From a virus, in the IMG/VR virus record IMGVR_UViG_3300041407_000348, positions 1-34,279 of that record: DNA of 34,279 nucleotides; one strand, 5' to 3'. A model generated the notes under the pieces. The model was given only the letters and a program-made list of their open reading frames with translations, was not told where the DNA came from and made no database searches. The stretch's first letter is position 1, and the number at the start of each line of letters is the position of its first letter. Both the position numbers and the translations under genes were made by a program. Below are positions 8,947-34,279 of the stretch, one piece after another.

Positions 8947-9828
8947 ATGACTAGGGTAAGAAGTTCTGCAATTCATATCGGTGCGCTTAATATTGTTCTT
9001 CAGCCGCACACGCCAGAAAAGTACATTGAATTGCTTCAAAAGATGGCGCGATATAAGTTTGATGCTCTTGTAAGGGGGGATGATGCGCTGCTTTTAGGTT
9101 CTTGTCGGTACCTTGATCCGAGTAATCCGCTAGCAGGAGTTAGAGGTGATATTTATAAATTTCTGAAGTTGGACTCGGCTGAAGCTTGGTTTAATACTGA
9201 GGTTATGGACGCAGCTACCGAGGATGAAATTGCTGAAATAAATATTCCGGACAATTTGAAGCCGCATTTTAAAAAATTTCAATATATTTTTATTCCGAAG
9301 GGGCACAGGTTTTACTTTGTTAGTGCTAAACCAAAACATAATCTTTCCCCTAGACTCGTAAAACGGTTTTTTGAAGCTGTATTTCTGAGAGAGGAGTTTG
9401 CTGAATTTGGTACTCTAAACGTTACAATTCAACCTGATCCTAGTGGTCTCAGTGAACTATTGTCATTGAAGCGAATCTCAATTTTGAAGATGGAAATCGA
9501 TCGCCCTAATCCGGATGATCTGGAGGATATGGAAGAAGAAATTTTGAGGAGGTTGAATAAATTGAATGCCAGGACAGAGAAAATAGAGTTTATGGAGGCG
9601 AGTAACGAAGGGCTTCGACCTGATGCGTATGTTAAGGCATTAGCAGCGGTAGCGAATGACAATGGCTTTGTGGCGGTTGAAGGTAAAGATAGTGATGGGT
9701 TGAAAAAGTACCTATCAACAAAAGATATGCCATTGCACGAAACAGCTAAATATAATCCCAACCTTACCTCGGAGTTTGACGCACTCTATGATAAAGTGGT
9801 TGAGATTCATCGCGAGATCACTAGGTAA
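8947..9828 (+). CDS. DUF4747-like protein, first gene of an accessory pair
   Basis: A 293-residue soluble protein of unknown function. A good RBS (GGGGG, 6 nt before the ATG) supports the start. The N-terminus (IGALNIVLQPHTPEKYIELLQKM), a LVRGDDALLLG segment and INIPDNLKPHFKKFQYIFIPKGHRFYFV resemble my memory of the uncharacterised DUF4747 family (240-300 residues); this is recognition by eye only. Residues about 195-220 are highly acidic and helical (DDLEDMEEEILRRLNKLN). No nuclease or ATPase motif is visible. The gene is AT-rich compared with the phage core and reads + among leftward genes. The membrane-protein gene starts 2 nt after its stop, so the two are almost certainly co-translated. 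A phage-exclusion or toxin-type role is a hypothesis. Confidence 0.75.
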   Translation: MTRVRSSAIHIGALNIVLQPHTPEKYIELLQKMARYKFDALVRGDDALLLGSCRYLDPSNPLAGVRGDIYKFLKLDSAEAWFNTEVMDAATEDEIAEINIPDNLKPHFKKFQYIFIPKGHRFYFVSAKPKHNLSPRLVKRFFEAVFLREEFAEFGTLNVTIQPDPSGLSELLSLKRISILKMEIDRPNPDDLEDMEEEILRRLNKLNARTEKIEFMEASNEGLRPDAYVKALAAVANDNGFVAVEGKDSDGLKKYLSTKDMPLHETAKYNPNLTSEFDALYDKVVEIHREITR

Positions 9829-9830
9829 CT

Positions 9831-10403
9831 ATGAATCTGTTAAGTAAGTTAAAGAAGGATTTCAAGGGGGTTCGCCGCATATGGGGCCAATACTGGTCAA
9901 TGTACGGCGGCTGCTCGGCTCTGTTTAGCTCTACTTACTTTTACGTTGCTTTGGGTTTAACTGTTTTAAATTTTGGGGCTTGGTTTCATTCGGGTTGGTG
10001 GGATATCGTGATTGCGAGTGTCCCAACGATTCTTGGTTTTACTTTGGCTGGGCTTGCTGTTTTTTTAGGGATGGATTCGGGGTTTAGTCGATTTCTTGTT
10101 GATAGTGATGAGGGGCAAATTTCGCCATTCATGGCTCTTGTTTCTGCATTTGCGCATTTTATTATTACTCAAGCAGTTGCAGTGATCGTTGCGCTTACAG
10201 TGAAGTCGGCGTATTTTGATGTTGATGGGTTGCCTGAGATTTACTATCAGGTTGTCTATGTCTTAAATAGAGTTGTTTGGTTTATAGGTTATTTTATTTA
10301 TATGTATTCAATGGTTCAGGTATTTAGTGCCGTTTTTGCAATATTTCGAGCAACATCGTGGTTTGAAAAATATGCGAGCAGTGAAAGAAGCAAGCAAAAA
10401 TAA
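9831..10403 (+). CDS. Four-helix membrane protein, second gene of the accessory pair
   Basis: A 190-residue integral membrane protein. Hydrophobic segments lie at about residues 29-52 (SALFSSTYFYVALGLTVLNF), 56-80 (WWDIVIASVPTILGFTLAGL), 100-123 (MALVSAFAHFIITQAVAVIV) and 138-170 (YQVVYVLNRVVWFIGYFIYM). Both ends are short and basic, consistent with cytoplasmic termini. The ATG lies 2 nt after the stop of the preceding gene, which implies coupling. No signal peptide or enzyme motif is recognised. Pairing a soluble protein with a small membrane protein resembles exclusion or abortive-infection systems where the membrane partner is the effector, but that is inference. Its stop is 3 bp from the convergent stop of gene D, with no terminator between. 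Confidence 0.8.
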   Translation: MNLLSKLKKDFKGVRRIWGQYWSMYGGCSALFSSTYFYVALGLTVLNFGAWFHSGWWDIVIASVPTILGFTLAGLAVFLGMDSGFSRFLVDSDEGQISPFMALVSAFAHFIITQAVAVIVALTVKSAYFDVDGLPEIYYQVVYVLNRVVWFIGYFIYMYSMVQVFSAVFAIFRATSWFEKYASSERSKQK

Positions 10404-28183: not shown

Positions 28184-29014
28184 TCAGCAGTCGGTCATGA
28201 CCTGGTTATCGCCACCGGTGACCGGAGGGCGCTTCGTTTGGTTGTGGTCCTGGGTGGTGGAGAGCTTGGTTTTCAGCTCTTTCAGGTCGGTGCTGACCTG
28301 TTCGATTTGCGTCTTCAGCCCAGCGGAGAATTTCTTCTCGGCAGCCAGTTGTTCGGGCAGGTCCTTGACGTGCTCGGCCACGGCTTCGACGGCTTCGCTG
28401 ATTTGGGCAAAATCCGCGTCGTCTTTGGTCTGTTTGCCCTTGAGCAGGTTTTGCACCTTGTTGAAGAGCTGGGCACCGATGCCGGGCTTCTCTTCGATTT
28501 CCTCGAACGTCAATTCGGTCTCGACCGCCTCGGTGAACATCGAGGTCGCGGAGTAGTGGCGATCCTTGAACGGGCTGGCGTCAGGTTTTTGGGCTGAGAA
28601 CGACAGCACGTCAGTGCCGAGGCTAGCCGGGGAGTCGGTGATGCCAAGCCCGACGATGTAGGCTTCGCCGGTGTCGGCGAAGCTGTCGTCGATTTCAATC
28701 GAGGTGTAAACCTTCTGCTTGGCCTTGTTCAGAGCGATCAGTTCGGCGGTCGGTTCGACCTGGGCGAACAACGCCAGTTTCTTCTGGCCGCCGATGTCCA
28801 CTTCTTCAGTCTTCACCGCCAATACGTCGCCGTAGGCCTTGAATGGGCCGTCTGGCAGCACGCTGCGGTAATGCTCCAGCCAGATGCGCGCGCCGTAGGT
28901 GGACGGGTTGAAGTTCTTCGCGGCTTGTTCCAGCCAGTTGCGTTTGATGGTGCGCTTGTCCGAGGTAGCGCCCTCGACGGCGACGCGGAACCAGTTGCTG
29001 CGAAATTTCTTCAT
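28184..29014 (-). CDS. O: Capsid scaffolding protein/protease (gpO)
   Basis: About 276 residues from the ATG at 29014 (MKKFRSNWFRVAVEGATSDKRTI), which has GAGGA upstream. Longer in-frame readings lack coding character. P2 O is a scaffold with an N-terminal serine protease that processes N and itself. The conserved ARIWLEHYRSVLPDGPFKAYGDVLAVK and QKVYTSIEIDDSFADTGEAYIVGLGITDSPASLGTD segments are clear, and the C-terminal part (about 190-260) is a charged helical scaffold. It is the first gene of the O operon, with an Ogr-type site upstream. Confidence 0.95.
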   Translation of the reverse strand: MKKFRSNWFRVAVEGATSDKRTIKRNWLEQAAKNFNPSTYGARIWLEHYRSVLPDGPFKAYGDVLAVKTEEVDIGGQKKLALFAQVEPTAELIALNKAKQKVYTSIEIDDSFADTGEAYIVGLGITDSPASLGTDVLSFSAQKPDASPFKDRHYSATSMFTEAVETELTFEEIEEKPGIGAQLFNKVQNLLKGKQTKDDADFAQISEAVEAVAEHVKDLPEQLAAEKKFSAGLKTQIEQVSTDLKELKTKLSTTQDHNQTKRPPVTGGDNQVMTDC

Positions 29015-29116
29015 GCCAGGAATCCTCATTGCGTGGGGCGCCTGCCGGTGGGTGAGCAGTGCGTTGCGATGAGGGGCATGGTCGTGACGCGCGTCAGCTA
29101 CATCAATGAGGGAGAG

Positions 29117-29137
29117 TTGTAGATTTGGTGATGACAA
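29117..29137. promoter_or_regulatory. Ogr-type activator site for the O operon
   Basis: TTGT-N13-ACAA has its centre at 29127, 113 bp from the O start codon. With a centre near -55 the transcript would begin about 29072, leaving a roughly 58-nt leader. The promoter itself has no strong -10. Confidence 0.75.
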
Positions 29138-29154: not shown

Positions 29155-29182
29155 TTGAAAAATAATGGCGTCATGCCATTAT
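29155..29182 (+). promoter_or_regulatory. Candidate promoter of the CoiA-like accessory gene
   Basis: TTGAAA (29155-29160) and CATTAT (29177-29182) with a 16-bp spacer point toward the gene at 29243. A perfect palindrome (29160-29184) covers the spacer and -10. Confidence 0.45.
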
Positions 29183-29184
29183 TT
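29160..29184. promoter_or_regulatory. 25-bp palindrome (10-bp perfect arms) over the accessory promoter
   Basis: AAATAATGGC-GTCAT-GCCATTATTT. On the - strand the hairpin is followed by TTTTTC, so it could also act as a weak terminator there, but no - strand gene precedes it. Position over a promoter favours an operator. Confidence 0.6.
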
Positions 29185-29242
29185 GGGGCTAGATTGGATC
29201 TACTGATGTAGCGTTTCTTAAGACCGAACAGGAGTTCCTGAT

Positions 29243-30409
29243 ATGACAGCTGAAAACTTGAATAACAATCGTATAAAATTTGCCTATTATCTCGAGGGAT
29301 GGAGATTCGAAACAGGAAATAAATCAGTATTGCGTTCGACAGCAAGATCTATTCTGACGTCGGAATATCAACAAGAAATGAAGGGTGAAATATTTTGTCC
29401 GGAGTGCTGTGTTGAGCTATTCATTTCTCCCAGTAATGGGCAAAACGATGCTAATGGAAGGCCCGCATACTTTGCTCACAGTCGCAAACGAAGATTACCT
29501 TGTGGTTTAAGAGTTAAAAAGCGAGAAGGGCTTCATTTTACTGATGAGGAGGAAGCTAAGCGAGCGATAGATGATGGGTTGTTGGTTGTTGTAAAAGAGT
29601 TCATGAAGGAGCGACCGGTCGCACCAAAACTTCCCGGGCTGGAATATAGTGGTCCTGTTGTCGAAGATGTTGATGGCGAACTAGCTGATATTCCTATCCC
29701 TAGGCATAATGGCGAAGAAATTAAAGTTCCAAGTCGAATCACAACGGTTCGAGGCTTGAGTCGTAGTTTTGATAAAAATTACCATAAATACTATTACTTT
29801 CCTGGGGCGCAGTATGCTCAGCTGTTAAGTGATGCGTTAACCGATGCGTCGATGGTTGAGGGCGTAAATGAGGTTCCGAAGCTTTATTACGGGAAGATAG
29901 TTGAGTCATTTGCAATGGGAGAGGGTAAGCCCTGGAATATGCAAATGACTAAAGTTGAGTATCGCTCTGGTAGTGGCTATAAAGATTTTTTTCTGAAAAT
30001 GTCGGTTCAAGATTCTATAGAGCATGGTATTGATAAAAGCGCGGTCGGTAGAGTTCTTTTAATGTATGGGGCTGTTGTCGAGAGTGGTATTGGGTTAGCG
30101 ATAACTGACTTAGGGTGGGGTGAGTTTGCGTTGCTCCCAGCTAAATATGATGCTGTTCTTTACCCTGATGAAACGGTGGAGTACGAGTCGACTTTAGAGC
30201 AGCTCTTGGCTGACATGACTGGCCTTACTCTTGAAGAGTTAGAGCAATGGATGGAAAGTGAGTCACAAGAGATTACCGACGACGGTGTACTCGTTGGGCA
30301 TATAGTTGATTTTCGAACCACGACTCCAGCAGCCATCATGAATCGTGTGATTGGCCGTACTGGAGAGTACACAGCAAACGTTGGTGTTATCGATTTGGAT
30401 GACGAGTGA
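29243..30409 (+). CDS. CoiA-like zinc-finger accessory protein of unknown function
   Basis: A 388-residue protein with a strong RBS (AGGAG, 8 nt before the ATG). Cys52, Cys55, His79 and Cys87, in an FCPEC ... YFAH ... C pattern, resemble the zinc site at the N-terminus of competence protein CoiA and related uncharacterised nuclease-like proteins. The rest has no motif I recognise: a DGLLVVVKEFM helix, a DGELADIPIPRHNGEE segment and a regular C-terminal part ending in acidic residues. The nuclease part of CoiA is not obvious, so nuclease activity is not claimed. It is AT-rich, reads + and sits between O and P, flanked by both Ogr-type sites. Its function is unknown, and a phage-exclusion or host-fitness role is the leading guess. 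Confidence 0.75.
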   Translation: MTAENLNNNRIKFAYYLEGWRFETGNKSVLRSTARSILTSEYQQEMKGEIFCPECCVELFISPSNGQNDANGRPAYFAHSRKRRLPCGLRVKKREGLHFTDEEEAKRAIDDGLLVVVKEFMKERPVAPKLPGLEYSGPVVEDVDGELADIPIPRHNGEEIKVPSRITTVRGLSRSFDKNYHKYYYFPGAQYAQLLSDALTDASMVEGVNEVPKLYYGKIVESFAMGEGKPWNMQMTKVEYRSGSGYKDFFLKMSVQDSIEHGIDKSAVGRVLLMYGAVVESGIGLAITDLGWGEFALLPAKYDAVLYPDETVEYESTLEQLLADMTGLTLEELEQWMESESQEITDDGVLVGHIVDFRTTTPAAIMNRVIGRTGEYTANVGVIDLDDE

Positions 30410-30442: not shown

Positions 30443-30476
30443 TCGGTCGCTAAGCCCTTTGTGGCAAAGCGACCGA
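30443..30476. terminator. Hairpin after the CoiA-like gene
   Basis: The arms TCGGTCGCT and AGCGACCGA (9 bp) flank a 16-nt loop that can form an extra GCC/GGC inner stem. It begins 33 bp after the accessory stop and 29 bp before the Ogr-type site of P. There is no long T-run, so it is a possible but imperfect terminator. Confidence 0.45.
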
Positions 30477-30504: not shown

Positions 30505-30525
30505 TTGTTTGAGCGCGATTGACAA
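30505..30525. promoter_or_regulatory. Ogr-type activator site for the P-Q operon
   Basis: TTGT-N13-ACAA has its centre at 30515, 58 bp upstream of the P start codon. The distance is almost identical to the V site (57 bp). A weak CAGCAT at 30560-30565 is the only -10 candidate. Confidence 0.75.
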
Positions 30526-30572: not shown

Positions 30573-32330
30573 ATGATTACGACCGCTCTGTTGCCCATCG
30601 ATCCCCGCCGCCAATCCAAGTTCCTCTACTGGATGGGATGGCGTATCTGCGAGATTGCCGAGGCTACGGGCGAAAAGGAAAAAACGCTACACAGCTGGAA
30701 GGCCCGCGATGAATGGGATCGGGCCGATAACGTCGAGCGCATTGGCGGGGCGTTGGAGGCACGTCTGGTGCAGTTGATCCTCAAGGAAGGTAAGAGCGGC
30801 GGTGACTTCAAGGAGATTGATCTGCTGCACCGGCAGTTGGAGCGGCAGGCGCGGATTCAGCGCTTTCAGGGCGGCGGTACCGAGACTGACCTCAACCCGA
30901 ACCTGGCCAAACGCAACGCCGAGCCGAAGAAGAAGGCCGTCAAAAACGAGATTGATGAAGACCAGGTCGAGTTGTTGCGCGAGGCGTTTATTGATGGCTG
31001 TTTCGACTATCAGAAGGACTGGTACCGGGCTGGCAATCAGCGAACCCGCGTCATCCTCAAGAGCCGGCAGATTGGGGCGACTTACTATTTCGCTCGCGAG
31101 GCGTTTATCGATGCCCTGGATACCGGGCGTAATCAGATTTTCCTCTCGGCCTCGAAGAACCAGGCTTATCTGTTCCGCGGTTACATTCAGGCGTTTGCCC
31201 GTGAGGTGATCGGCGTTGAGTTAACCGGTGATCCCATTGTGTTGCCCAACGGCGCTGAACTGTTTTTCCTCGGTACCAATGCCCGGACCGCCCAGGGCTA
31301 CCATGGCAATTTCTACTTCGACGAGTTTTTCTGGACGTTCAAGTTCGAGGAGCTGAACAAGGTCGCCTCGGGCATGGCGATGCACAAGAAATGGCGCAAG
31401 ACCTACTTTTCGACGCCGTCGAGCATGGCCCACGAGGCGTACACCTTCTGGACGGGCGAGCGTTTCAACAAGGGTAAGCCGGCGGCGCAGCACACGAAGG
31501 TGGACGTGTCCCACGGCGCGCTCCAGCAGGGGCGGTTCTGTGAGGATCGGTTGTGGCGGCAGATCGTCACGATCCTGGATGCGGAGCGGGGCGGGTGCGA
31601 CCTATTCGACATCGAGGAGCTGCGGCGCGAATACAGCCCCGAAGCTTTTGCCAACCTGTTGATGTGTGAGTTTGTCGATGACGGGGCGAGCATCTTTCCG
31701 CTGACGCTGTTGCAGTCCTGCATGGTGGACAGTTGGGTTGAGTGGGCTGAGGACTACAAGCCGTTTGCCATGCGTCCGTTCGGTGATCGGCAGGTGTGGA
31801 TTGGTTATGATCCGGCTGAGACGGGCGACTGCTCGGGCATGGTGGTGGTTGCACCGCCGCTGGTGCCGGGTGGCAAGTTTCGGATTCTGGAGCGGCACCA
31901 GTTTCGCGGGATGGACTTTGCCGCGCAGGCCGCGTTTATCAAGAGCATCTGCGATCGCTACTGGGTGACCTACATCGGCATCGATGTCACTGGGCTGGGC
32001 AGCGGCGTGGCCCAGCTGGTGCGCCAGTTCTTTCCAGCGGTGACCACCTTCAGCTATTCGCCCGAAGTCAAAACCCGCTTGGTGCTCAAGGCGTACGACG
32101 TTATCCACAGGGGGCGGCTGGAGTTCGATGCTGGATGGACTGACATGGCGCAGTCGCTGATGGCCATCCGCAAGACCGTCACCGCTGGCGGTCGCCAGTA
32201 CACCTATACCGCAGGGCGCAACGACAACACCGGCCACGCCGACCTGGCGTGGGCGCTCTTTCATGCATTGCACAACGAACCGCTTGAGGGGCAGACGGCT
32301 GCCAATACCGGGCGGATGGAGATTTATTGA
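30573..32330 (+). CDS. P: Terminase ATPase subunit (gpP)
   Basis: About 585 residues from the ATG at 30573; a TTG at 30552 would start it earlier, and neither has an RBS. An N-terminal HTH (WRICEIAEATGEKEKTLHSWKARDEW) precedes the packaging ATPase, with Walker A-like LKSRQIGATYYFA near residue 165 and Walker B in FYFDEFFW. A C-terminal nuclease-fold region contains WIGYDPAETGDCSG, IGIDVTGLGSG and HADLAWALFHAL. It drives DNA into the capsid with gpM. It reads + and opposite to O, as in P2, and its stop overlaps the Q start by one base. Confidence 0.95.
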   Translation: MITTALLPIDPRRQSKFLYWMGWRICEIAEATGEKEKTLHSWKARDEWDRADNVERIGGALEARLVQLILKEGKSGGDFKEIDLLHRQLERQARIQRFQGGGTETDLNPNLAKRNAEPKKKAVKNEIDEDQVELLREAFIDGCFDYQKDWYRAGNQRTRVILKSRQIGATYYFAREAFIDALDTGRNQIFLSASKNQAYLFRGYIQAFAREVIGVELTGDPIVLPNGAELFFLGTNARTAQGYHGNFYFDEFFWTFKFEELNKVASGMAMHKKWRKTYFSTPSSMAHEAYTFWTGERFNKGKPAAQHTKVDVSHGALQQGRFCEDRLWRQIVTILDAERGGCDLFDIEELRREYSPEAFANLLMCEFVDDGASIFPLTLLQSCMVDSWVEWAEDYKPFAMRPFGDRQVWIGYDPAETGDCSGMVVVAPPLVPGGKFRILERHQFRGMDFAAQAAFIKSICDRYWVTYIGIDVTGLGSGVAQLVRQFFPAVTTFSYSPEVKTRLVLKAYDVIHRGRLEFDAGWTDMAQSLMAIRKTVTAGGRQYTYTAGRNDNTGHADLAWALFHALHNEPLEGQTAANTGRMEIY

Positions 32331-33346
32331 TGACTGAACAAGTTGCCGGTCAGACGCTGTTGCCTGCGACCACACCTTCCACCGGGACTCAGGTGTTTTC
32401 CTTTGGTGAGCCGACGCCGGTGCTGGGTGGCCGGGAGGTGTTTTATTACCTGGAGTGCTGGTTTAACGGGCGATGGTATGAGCCGCCGTTGTCATTGGAT
32501 GGGCTGGCCCGGTCGGTGGGGGCGAGCGTGCATTTGCACTCGGGGTTGATGTTCAAGCGCAATTTATTGAGCAAGACGTTTATTCCGCATCCGCTGCTGT
32601 CGCGGGCTTCGTTTGAGCAGTTTGCTCTGGATTTCTTGTGTTTGGGCAATGGTTACCTTGAGGGACGGCGTTCGAGGCTGGGCGGTGTTCGCAAACTGGA
32701 AACGCCGTTGGCCAAGTACATGCGTGCTGGCCCGGACGGGCAGTTCTACCAGGTGCGCGGATGGAAGGACGAACACGCATTTGAGCCGGACAGCATTTTT
32801 CACCTGCGCGAAGCGGATCTGCATCAGGAGATTTATGGGCTGCCGGAGTGGATCAGCGCGTTGCAGTCGGCGTTGTTGAATGAGTCGGCGACGTTGTTTC
32901 GGCGCAAATACTACGAGAACGGCAGTCATGCCGGGTTCATTCTGTATATGACGGATGCGGCGCAGACCGAGGCCGACATTGATGCGTTGCGCAAAGCGCT
33001 TAAGGATTCAAAGGGACCAGGCAATTTTCGGAATTTGTTTGTGTACTCACCGACTGGGAAGAAGGATGGGATTCAGCTGATTCCGGTGAGTGAGGTTGCA
33101 GCGAAGGACGAGTTCAACTCGATAAAGAATCAGACGCGGGATGATGTGCTGGCGAGTCTGCGGATTCCGCCGCAGTTGATGGGTATTGTTCCGCAAAATG
33201 CAGGAGGATTTGGGTCTATCCGGGAGGCTACGGAAGTGTGGGTTATGAATGAGCTTGAGCCAATACAAACGCGGATGTCTCAGCTTAACGAATGGATCGG
33301 CGATGAGGTTGTTAGCTTTAAAGCTTATGAGCTTATTCATGAATAA
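32330..33346 (+). CDS. Q: Portal protein (gpQ)
   Basis: A 338-residue PBSX/P2-type portal, the dodecameric ring for DNA entry. VFSFGEPTPVLGGREVFYYLECW is the N-terminal signature. DFLCLGNGYLEGRRSRLGGVRKLETPLAKYMRAG, LREADLHQEIYGLPEWISALQSALLNESATLFRRKYYENGSHAGFILYMTD and RIPPQLMGIVPQNAGGFGS are diagnostic further on. The ATG at 32330 overlaps the P stop (TGATG). It is the last late gene on this side, and cos should lie just beyond. Confidence 0.96.
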   Translation: MTEQVAGQTLLPATTPSTGTQVFSFGEPTPVLGGREVFYYLECWFNGRWYEPPLSLDGLARSVGASVHLHSGLMFKRNLLSKTFIPHPLLSRASFEQFALDFLCLGNGYLEGRRSRLGGVRKLETPLAKYMRAGPDGQFYQVRGWKDEHAFEPDSIFHLREADLHQEIYGLPEWISALQSALLNESATLFRRKYYENGSHAGFILYMTDAAQTEADIDALRKALKDSKGPGNFRNLFVYSPTGKKDGIQLIPVSEVAAKDEFNSIKNQTRDDVLASLRIPPQLMGIVPQNAGGFGSIREATEVWVMNELEPIQTRMSQLNEWIGDEVVSFKAYELIHE

Positions 33347-33433: not shown

Positions 33434-34279
33434 TTATGGATATTGATTTCTGTGTCTTTTTAGGCTGTCCTGAATATACCGGAAAATTGTATAGACCGAG
33501 TTAACTATCAATGTTGCCTCTGGTTCGTCCAGAAGCTCATTGGCGTGCGCTAGGCTTGCCTTGTTTCGAATAGTAGAAAGTGCATCAATTGATGCGGCAA
33601 AAGACTGAAGGACTCTAGTTACTTCTGAGGCGCGAGGTCCACGGGGTGTGAGAGCTGGATGATTCTCTCGTAGAATTTTAAAAGCTTTGGTTGAAGTAGT
33701 GTCTTCACCTAAAACTAGGTTTGTTTCAGCACAAATTGAAAGCAAGTATCCATGAAGTGCAGTGTGGGCTCGGTCTACTGCACTTGATGCGTTTGTTTGA
33801 CCAATTAGTGCTTTAGCATCAGCTAAAGCACGTTCGACAATACTTTCGGGAGATGCGGTTGGTGCTGGAGGAGTAATGTGGTTTGAAGTCGCGCTAAGTG
33901 TGTTGTCAATTATTCTAAAAGGTATGCCGTGCTTCTCTAATACCCCGTTTACGTGTTCGTGTGAAGGCGTGTGAATATCGTAACGTGACAGAAATTCACA
34001 CGTATCGCAAAATGCAGAAACGAAGGCTGGGGTATCGACGGCTGCTAGCGTTGCGTAATCATCTAGATCACTTTCTGCCCATGATAAGTTCGAGCTTTTG
34101 GAGTATGAGTTGCCACTGGCTCTTGCAAAGTTTTCTTTGAATTTTTCAATGATGTACTGCTTCTCTCCTTTTGTTGTTATTTTTCTTGCCAAACTTACAA
34201 ACTCAGTTACTGCGCCGGCTCCCATTTCTGTAGGTTTTCCCATTGGGAAGCGCAGGTCAGCGGTCATATTTAATGGCAT
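33434..34279 (-). CDS. Abortive-infection family protein (Abi_C domain)
   Basis: A 281-residue protein reading in from the window edge. An ATG at 34279 is the first codon in view, and ATGs at 34267 or 34243 are alternatives. The C-terminal half (about 145-275) matches the Abi_C domain: AHTALHGYLLSICAETNLVLGEDTTSTKAFKIL, then HPALTPRGPRASEVTRVLQSFAASIDALSTIRNKASLAHANELLDEPEA. The N-terminal half is helical and AT-rich in sequence, with no recognised motif. In related lactococcal and other systems such proteins halt phage growth by killing or arresting the cell; the trigger is unknown here. It sits just right of the portal gene with its own terminator. Upstream sequence is outside the window. 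Confidence 0.88.
   Translation of the reverse strand: MPLNMTADLRFPMGKPTEMGAGAVTEFVSLARKITTKGEKQYIIEKFKENFARASGNSYSKSSNLSWAESDLDDYATLAAVDTPAFVSAFCDTCEFLSRYDIHTPSHEHVNGVLEKHGIPFRIIDNTLSATSNHITPPAPTASPESIVERALADAKALIGQTNASSAVDRAHTALHGYLLSICAETNLVLGEDTTSTKAFKILRENHPALTPRGPRASEVTRVLQSFAASIDALSTIRNKASLAHANELLDEPEATLIVNSVYTIFRYIQDSLKRHRNQYP

Follow-up and report, generated by a model that had tools for sequence, protein, structure and literature searches.

A mobile single-gene cassette between the late operons of P2-like phages encodes a zinc-site, predicted OB-fold protein with a proposed role in anti-phage defence

Computational analysis of a 34,279-nt viral DNA (here called the window) identified a mobile, independently equipped single-gene cassette between the capsid scaffold gene O and the terminase gene P. 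The encoded protein has an invariant zinc site followed by a predicted OB fold, and its relatives are often found in defence-gene neighbourhoods. As the best explanation, we propose that it is a single-gene, non-catalytic anti-phage defence, expressed by the prophage and acting through nucleic-acid binding. Because there is a gap between association and function, we give this proposal no more than even weight.

Results

A conserved, AT-rich gene lies between O and P

The P2-family capsid protein, scaffold O and terminase P were recognized in the window with Pfam, and the DNA probably belongs to a P2-like Pseudomonas phage, the host genus being judged from its relatives. The ORF between O and P, which begins with an ATG at 29243, ends with a TGA at 30409 and encodes 388 aa, is a real gene. 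Its dN/dS of 0.03-0.05 among Pseudomonas-type relatives indicates that the protein is under strong purifying selection. With a G+C content of 0.44, compared to ~0.59-0.60 in O and P, it agrees with an earlier sequence-only reading that described an unclassified, AT-rich gene in this place. The locus contains the following features.

28184..29020, minus strand: gene O, capsid scaffold (Phage_GPO, Pfam match)
29118..29136, no strand: TGT-N13-ACA late-activator-like site, O side; position conserved in relatives
29155..29182, plus strand: sigma-70-like promoter motif TTGAAA-16-CATTAT with TG, extended -10 TGCCATTAT; kept in relatives
29160..29184, no strand: perfect inverted repeat AAATAATGGC-GTCAT-GCCATTATTT with 10-bp arms over the cargo promoter -10, read directly
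29230..29234, plus strand: Shine-Dalgarno sequence AGGAG, 8 nt before the ATG, read in the sequence
29243..30409, plus strand: cargo gene, with zinc domain, OB-fold domain and C-terminal module
30443..30476, plus strand: terminator-like hairpin 3' of the cargo gene (TCGGTCGCT ... AGCGACCGA), z -2.5
30506..30524, no strand: second TGT-N13-ACA site, P side; found only where the cargo gene is present
30576..32330, plus strand: gene P, terminase (Terminase_5/6, Pfam match)

Other parts of the window also resemble cargo. An Abi_C (abortive infection C-terminus) protein (E 1.1e-13) is encoded at 33434-34279 on the minus strand, reaching the record end just past 32327-33346, which is probably portal gene Q and follows P; its place resembles the published P2 cos-proximal defence hotspot. 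At the opposite end, positions 1-1083 encode an HNH endonuclease protein (E 2.8e-11) that is probably another cargo gene. Positions 8947-10403 on the plus strand encode a DUF4747 protein (E 1.6e-62) and then a 190-aa ORF without family match. This segment is opposite in strand to the large minus-strand ORFs around it and looks like a two-gene cargo.

The O-P slot is either empty or holds this gene

Across the 80 nearest O relatives and the cargo gene's own loci, the O-P gap measured either ~140-175 bp or ~1.5 kb, and every long gap held the cargo gene and no other. All scorable O-P sites of a second O clade were empty but one, and the filled one again carried the cargo gene. Overall, empty sites spanned ~140-190 bp and usually contained one TGT-N13-ACA site (13 of 13 examined in detail), and occupied sites had two, flanking the gene. 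The O tree requires a minimum of 10 changes between presence and absence of the gene, with 8 of them forced by well-supported branches, and therefore the cassette has been gained and lost repeatedly. The empty and occupied sites among relatives thus bear out the gene's proposed status as cargo. A search of ~100 loci gave no sign of a general O-P hotspot carrying assorted cargo, and the location between O and P, not A-Q, places the gene outside the cos-proximal A-Q site of P2.

The cassette carries its own expression signals

The Shine-Dalgarno sequence accounts for the strong ribosome-binding site that had been claimed for the gene. The extended -10, TGCCA(T/C)TAT, was present in 14 of the 14 occupied loci checked, and the remaining upstream region was variable. 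The inverted repeat over the -10 is a possible operator; part of it was retained in two relatives (L003 and L004) and in none of the others. Hairpins formed by differing sequences follow the cargo gene in most, not all, relatives. The one in the window is without a T-run, and the terminator scan made no call there.

The TGT-N13-ACA motif is not enriched by itself in the window (7 observed vs 6.1 expected), and what is meaningful is its position conserved across relatives, not the motif alone. The late promoters of P2 contain TGT-N12-ACA, and a single site of Smp131 serves both PO and PP (PMC3931495). By analogy, we read the TGT-N13-ACA sites as late-activator sites, and the two are assumed to act outward, on O and P, while the cargo gene has its own promoter. 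The previous suggestion of late sites on both sides and independent expression therefore holds in outline, with the correction that the sites probably face O and P and that the cargo gene has its own extended -10. P2-like Pseudomonas phages carry the gene as a self-contained moron cassette, which consists of the extended -10 motif, a ribosome-binding site, the gene itself and, in most cases, a hairpin, and which is placed where the O and P late operons diverge. The late-activator-like site remaining on each side would keep the virion genes controlled, and the lysogen may produce the cargo protein from the cassette's promoter.

A zinc domain is followed by a predicted OB fold

Three regions of the protein were delineated.

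29354..29512, plus strand: residues 38-90, CoiA/DUF7830-like C2HC zinc site C52, C55, H79, C87 (homologue alignment)
29867..30136, plus strand: residues 209-298, predicted OB fold, beta1-beta2-beta3-alpha-beta4-beta5 (AlphaFold core model, Foldseek)
30191..30400, plus strand: residues 317-386, C-terminal module, in Pseudomonas-type copies only; stand-alone in other phages

The protein gave nothing above cut-off in Pfam, PADLOC, PHROGs or NCBIfam profiles or in a PDB sequence search, in keeping with the prediction that it matches no known family. It matched no system model of PADLOC 2023, where its relatives had chance-level hits only, and a PDB profile match to Gp26 (E 0.032) was treated as chance. 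Plasmids yielded no match to the cargo, annotated phages no nucleotide match, and scans with a gapped wide alignment and with the relative from locus L138 found nothing. In the literature, we did not find CoiA-like defence, DUF7830 or DUF6035 described.

The zinc ligands C52-x2-C55 ... H79-x7-C87 did not vary among 24 homologues with identities as low as 22%, confirming the CoiA-like zinc site noted previously. The only profile match, to DUF7830 (PF25169) over residues 38-84, scored 16.9 bits (E 0.0058), below the Pfam gathering cut-off of 27.5, and the protein is therefore not assigned to that family. CoiA_N and CoiA_nuc gave no profile match to the cargo protein up to E 10 and likewise none among 21 relatives up to E 1. 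CoiA carries a PD-(D/E)XK nuclease domain (PMC1913061). The cargo protein is not a member of the CoiA family, and its likeness to CoiA is confined to the zinc domain. Two genes from a relative of the cargo gene, Vibrio phage 10N.286.54.F2_PE001 encodes a protein with both DUF7830 and DUF6035 in full that also matches CoiA_nuc weakly.

Because the full-length AlphaFold model was poor beyond residue 310, the core (residues 1-308) was refolded alone, giving pLDDT 79 and pTM 0.76. The predicted second domain is a five-strand beta barrel with a helix between strands 3 and 4. Its best PDB matches by Foldseek, which span only ~100 of the 308 core residues, were the OB folds of LysRS, Teb1, Stn1 and RPA (E ~1e-4 to 1e-3), and viral fold matches included phage SSB-like and tRNA_anti-like proteins. 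OB folds can also bind proteins or sugars. The structural check for a hidden nuclease fold was negative: the top matches contained no nuclease domain, and such a nuclease was therefore rejected on fold. This outcome supports the earlier statement that there is no recognizable catalytic domain. Residues 91-200 could hide an activity.

The C-terminal module resembles small stand-alone phage proteins from AUS531phi and two 66-kb phage contigs. Two stand-alone relatives (L015:5956-6192 and L185:3863-4204) are each near DNA methyltransferase genes, the neighbour in L185 being a putative methyltransferase as read from sequence, and the L015 protein has a sub-threshold YdaS match. The Pseudomonas copies may have borrowed this module from a small phage protein and added it to what would be a non-catalytic nucleic-acid binder, composed of a CoiA-type C2HC zinc domain and then an OB fold.

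Relatives are found among defence genes in unrelated hosts

Relatives of ~300 aa with 22-52% identity were found in Vibrio, Massilia, Aestuariicella, an Oceanospirillaceae MAG and several phages. The distribution is sporadic (2 of 369 and 6 of 392 genomes), and the gene is not phage-only, because the chromosomes of Vibrio, Massilia and others have islands that contain relatives. Across these unrelated hosts, relatives often lie among defence genes. Drt2 is within ~4 kb in Massilia and two Vibrionaceae (Vibrio) genomes, and other neighbours within this distance are type IV restriction enzymes, retron type VI RT, TIR-TM, bSEFIR, PDC-S54, PDC-S31 with RmrT, HNH restriction and putAbiC. Shedu SduA is 91 bp from one relative, and the Vibrionaceae genome G475 has two family copies (L135 and L137), one adjoining Drt2 and one Shedu. 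No defence gene was recognized near the relatives in L138, L141 and L131; the last (L131:7232-8122), a very distant relative with 22% identity, is in a housekeeping setting with glutamate kinase- and Obg-like genes.

The 248 Vibrionaceae genomes contain 8 copies of true Drt2, and the cargo family also has 8 copies in Vibrionaceae. Two Drt2 copies, a pair of close copies, lie within 400 bp of the cargo family, compared to ~2e-4 adjacencies expected from a rough background (1.5-kb reach on each side, genome ~4.8 Mb). In Vibrio phage locus L029, the relative separates the integrase side from an HTH-M78 repressor-like gene, and relatives of the integrase are mostly from Vibrio phages. This position matches that of a Vibrionaceae defence hotspot reported by Rousset et al. 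(2022, PMC9122126), which lies between the cI and integrase genes in K139-like phages related to P2.

The cargo gene had been suggested to represent a new phage-borne function. It corresponds to no described family, but it is not phage-borne only, and because the gene neighbourhoods point to anti-phage defence, its function is more specific than that phrase implies.

Discussion

We infer the defence role from gene neighbourhoods and the mechanism from the predicted fold. A cargo protein expressed in the lysogen would bind the incoming phage's ssDNA, RNA or replication intermediate and thereby block or sense the phage. More tentatively, the zinc domain and OB fold may together recognize and block a single-stranded intermediate without enzyme activity, and the Pseudomonas C-terminal fusion may alter target or regulation. 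Defence genes abound in the accessory regions of prophages, and the defence neighbourhood is therefore guilt by association only. An O-P slot with one gene only also differs from ordinary variable defence hotspots, which counts against defence.

Counter-defence genes can share such places, and the protein could conceivably shield the phage that encodes it against restriction or other immunity of the host, by attaching to phage DNA or to a host nuclease. A binding-only architecture would suit this role, for which Lar, a small zinc protein that alleviates restriction, is a precedent. One relative adjoins a type IV restriction-like HNH gene, another is near a type IV restriction enzyme, and other phages have the C-terminal module close to genes for DNA methyltransferases. 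However, the cargo gene does not sit in an early operon but comes with a sigma-70-like promoter and a hairpin of its own, and its relatives adjoin defence genes in chromosomal islands, not in phage early regions. We consider counter-defence unlikely.

A shade less likely again is an accessory nucleic-acid protein for ssDNA binding, recombination or DNA uptake, with defence neighbours as a by-product of shared mobile elements. The OB fold resembles those of the ssDNA binders RPA, Stn1 and Teb1, and the zinc domain resembles the N-terminal region of CoiA-type proteins, but the family's sporadic distribution argues against such a role. So does the gene's absence from most close phages, which makes it dispensable for replication.

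The adjacency to Drt2 in Massilia and two Vibrio genomes could mean that the protein does not stand alone but serves neighbouring systems, above all Drt2, as an optional partner. This is improbable, given that gene order differs between Massilia and Vibrio, that 6 of the 8 Vibrionaceae Drt2 copies are without a family match (in short flanks), that other copies pair with unrelated systems and that the Pseudomonas cassette is alone. The location between O and P would fit a late morphogenesis factor of the virion, which is very hard to sustain when most close phage relatives have empty O-P sites, the gene has its own promoter motif and relatives occur outside phages.

If the defence explanation is correct, an undescribed family would be added to prophage-borne immunity in Pseudomonas, Vibrio, Massilia and others, with an architecture confined to binding, which searches based on nucleases or enzymes would miss. 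The cassette also marks a point of insertion in P2-like phages, between late operons that run in opposite directions, where a late-activator-like site is retained on each side.

Like the P2/P4 and Vibrio K139-type hotspots (PMC9122126), the O-P slot places small cargo between conserved phage genes. The Pseudomonas slot differs from the P2/P4 hotspots in lying between O and P rather than A and Q, and in holding the cargo gene or nothing. Drt2 and Shedu SduA resemble the cargo family as single-gene cargo in the same islands, but the cargo protein has neither a reverse transcriptase nor a nuclease and is unrelated to them in sequence. The CoiA/DUF6035 family shares the N-terminal CxxC...H...C zinc pattern, with a weak DUF7830 match to the cargo protein; its members join a DUF7830 or CoiA_N zinc domain to CoiA_nuc or DUF6035, a PD-(D/E)XK-type nuclease, whereas in the cargo protein the predicted OB fold replaces the nuclease domain. 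RPA32, Stn1, Teb1 and the LysRS anticodon-binding domain, the top Foldseek matches, have the predicted OB topology in common with the cargo protein. They show no sequence similarity to it, and the OB fold of the cargo protein is instead fused to a CoiA-like zinc domain.
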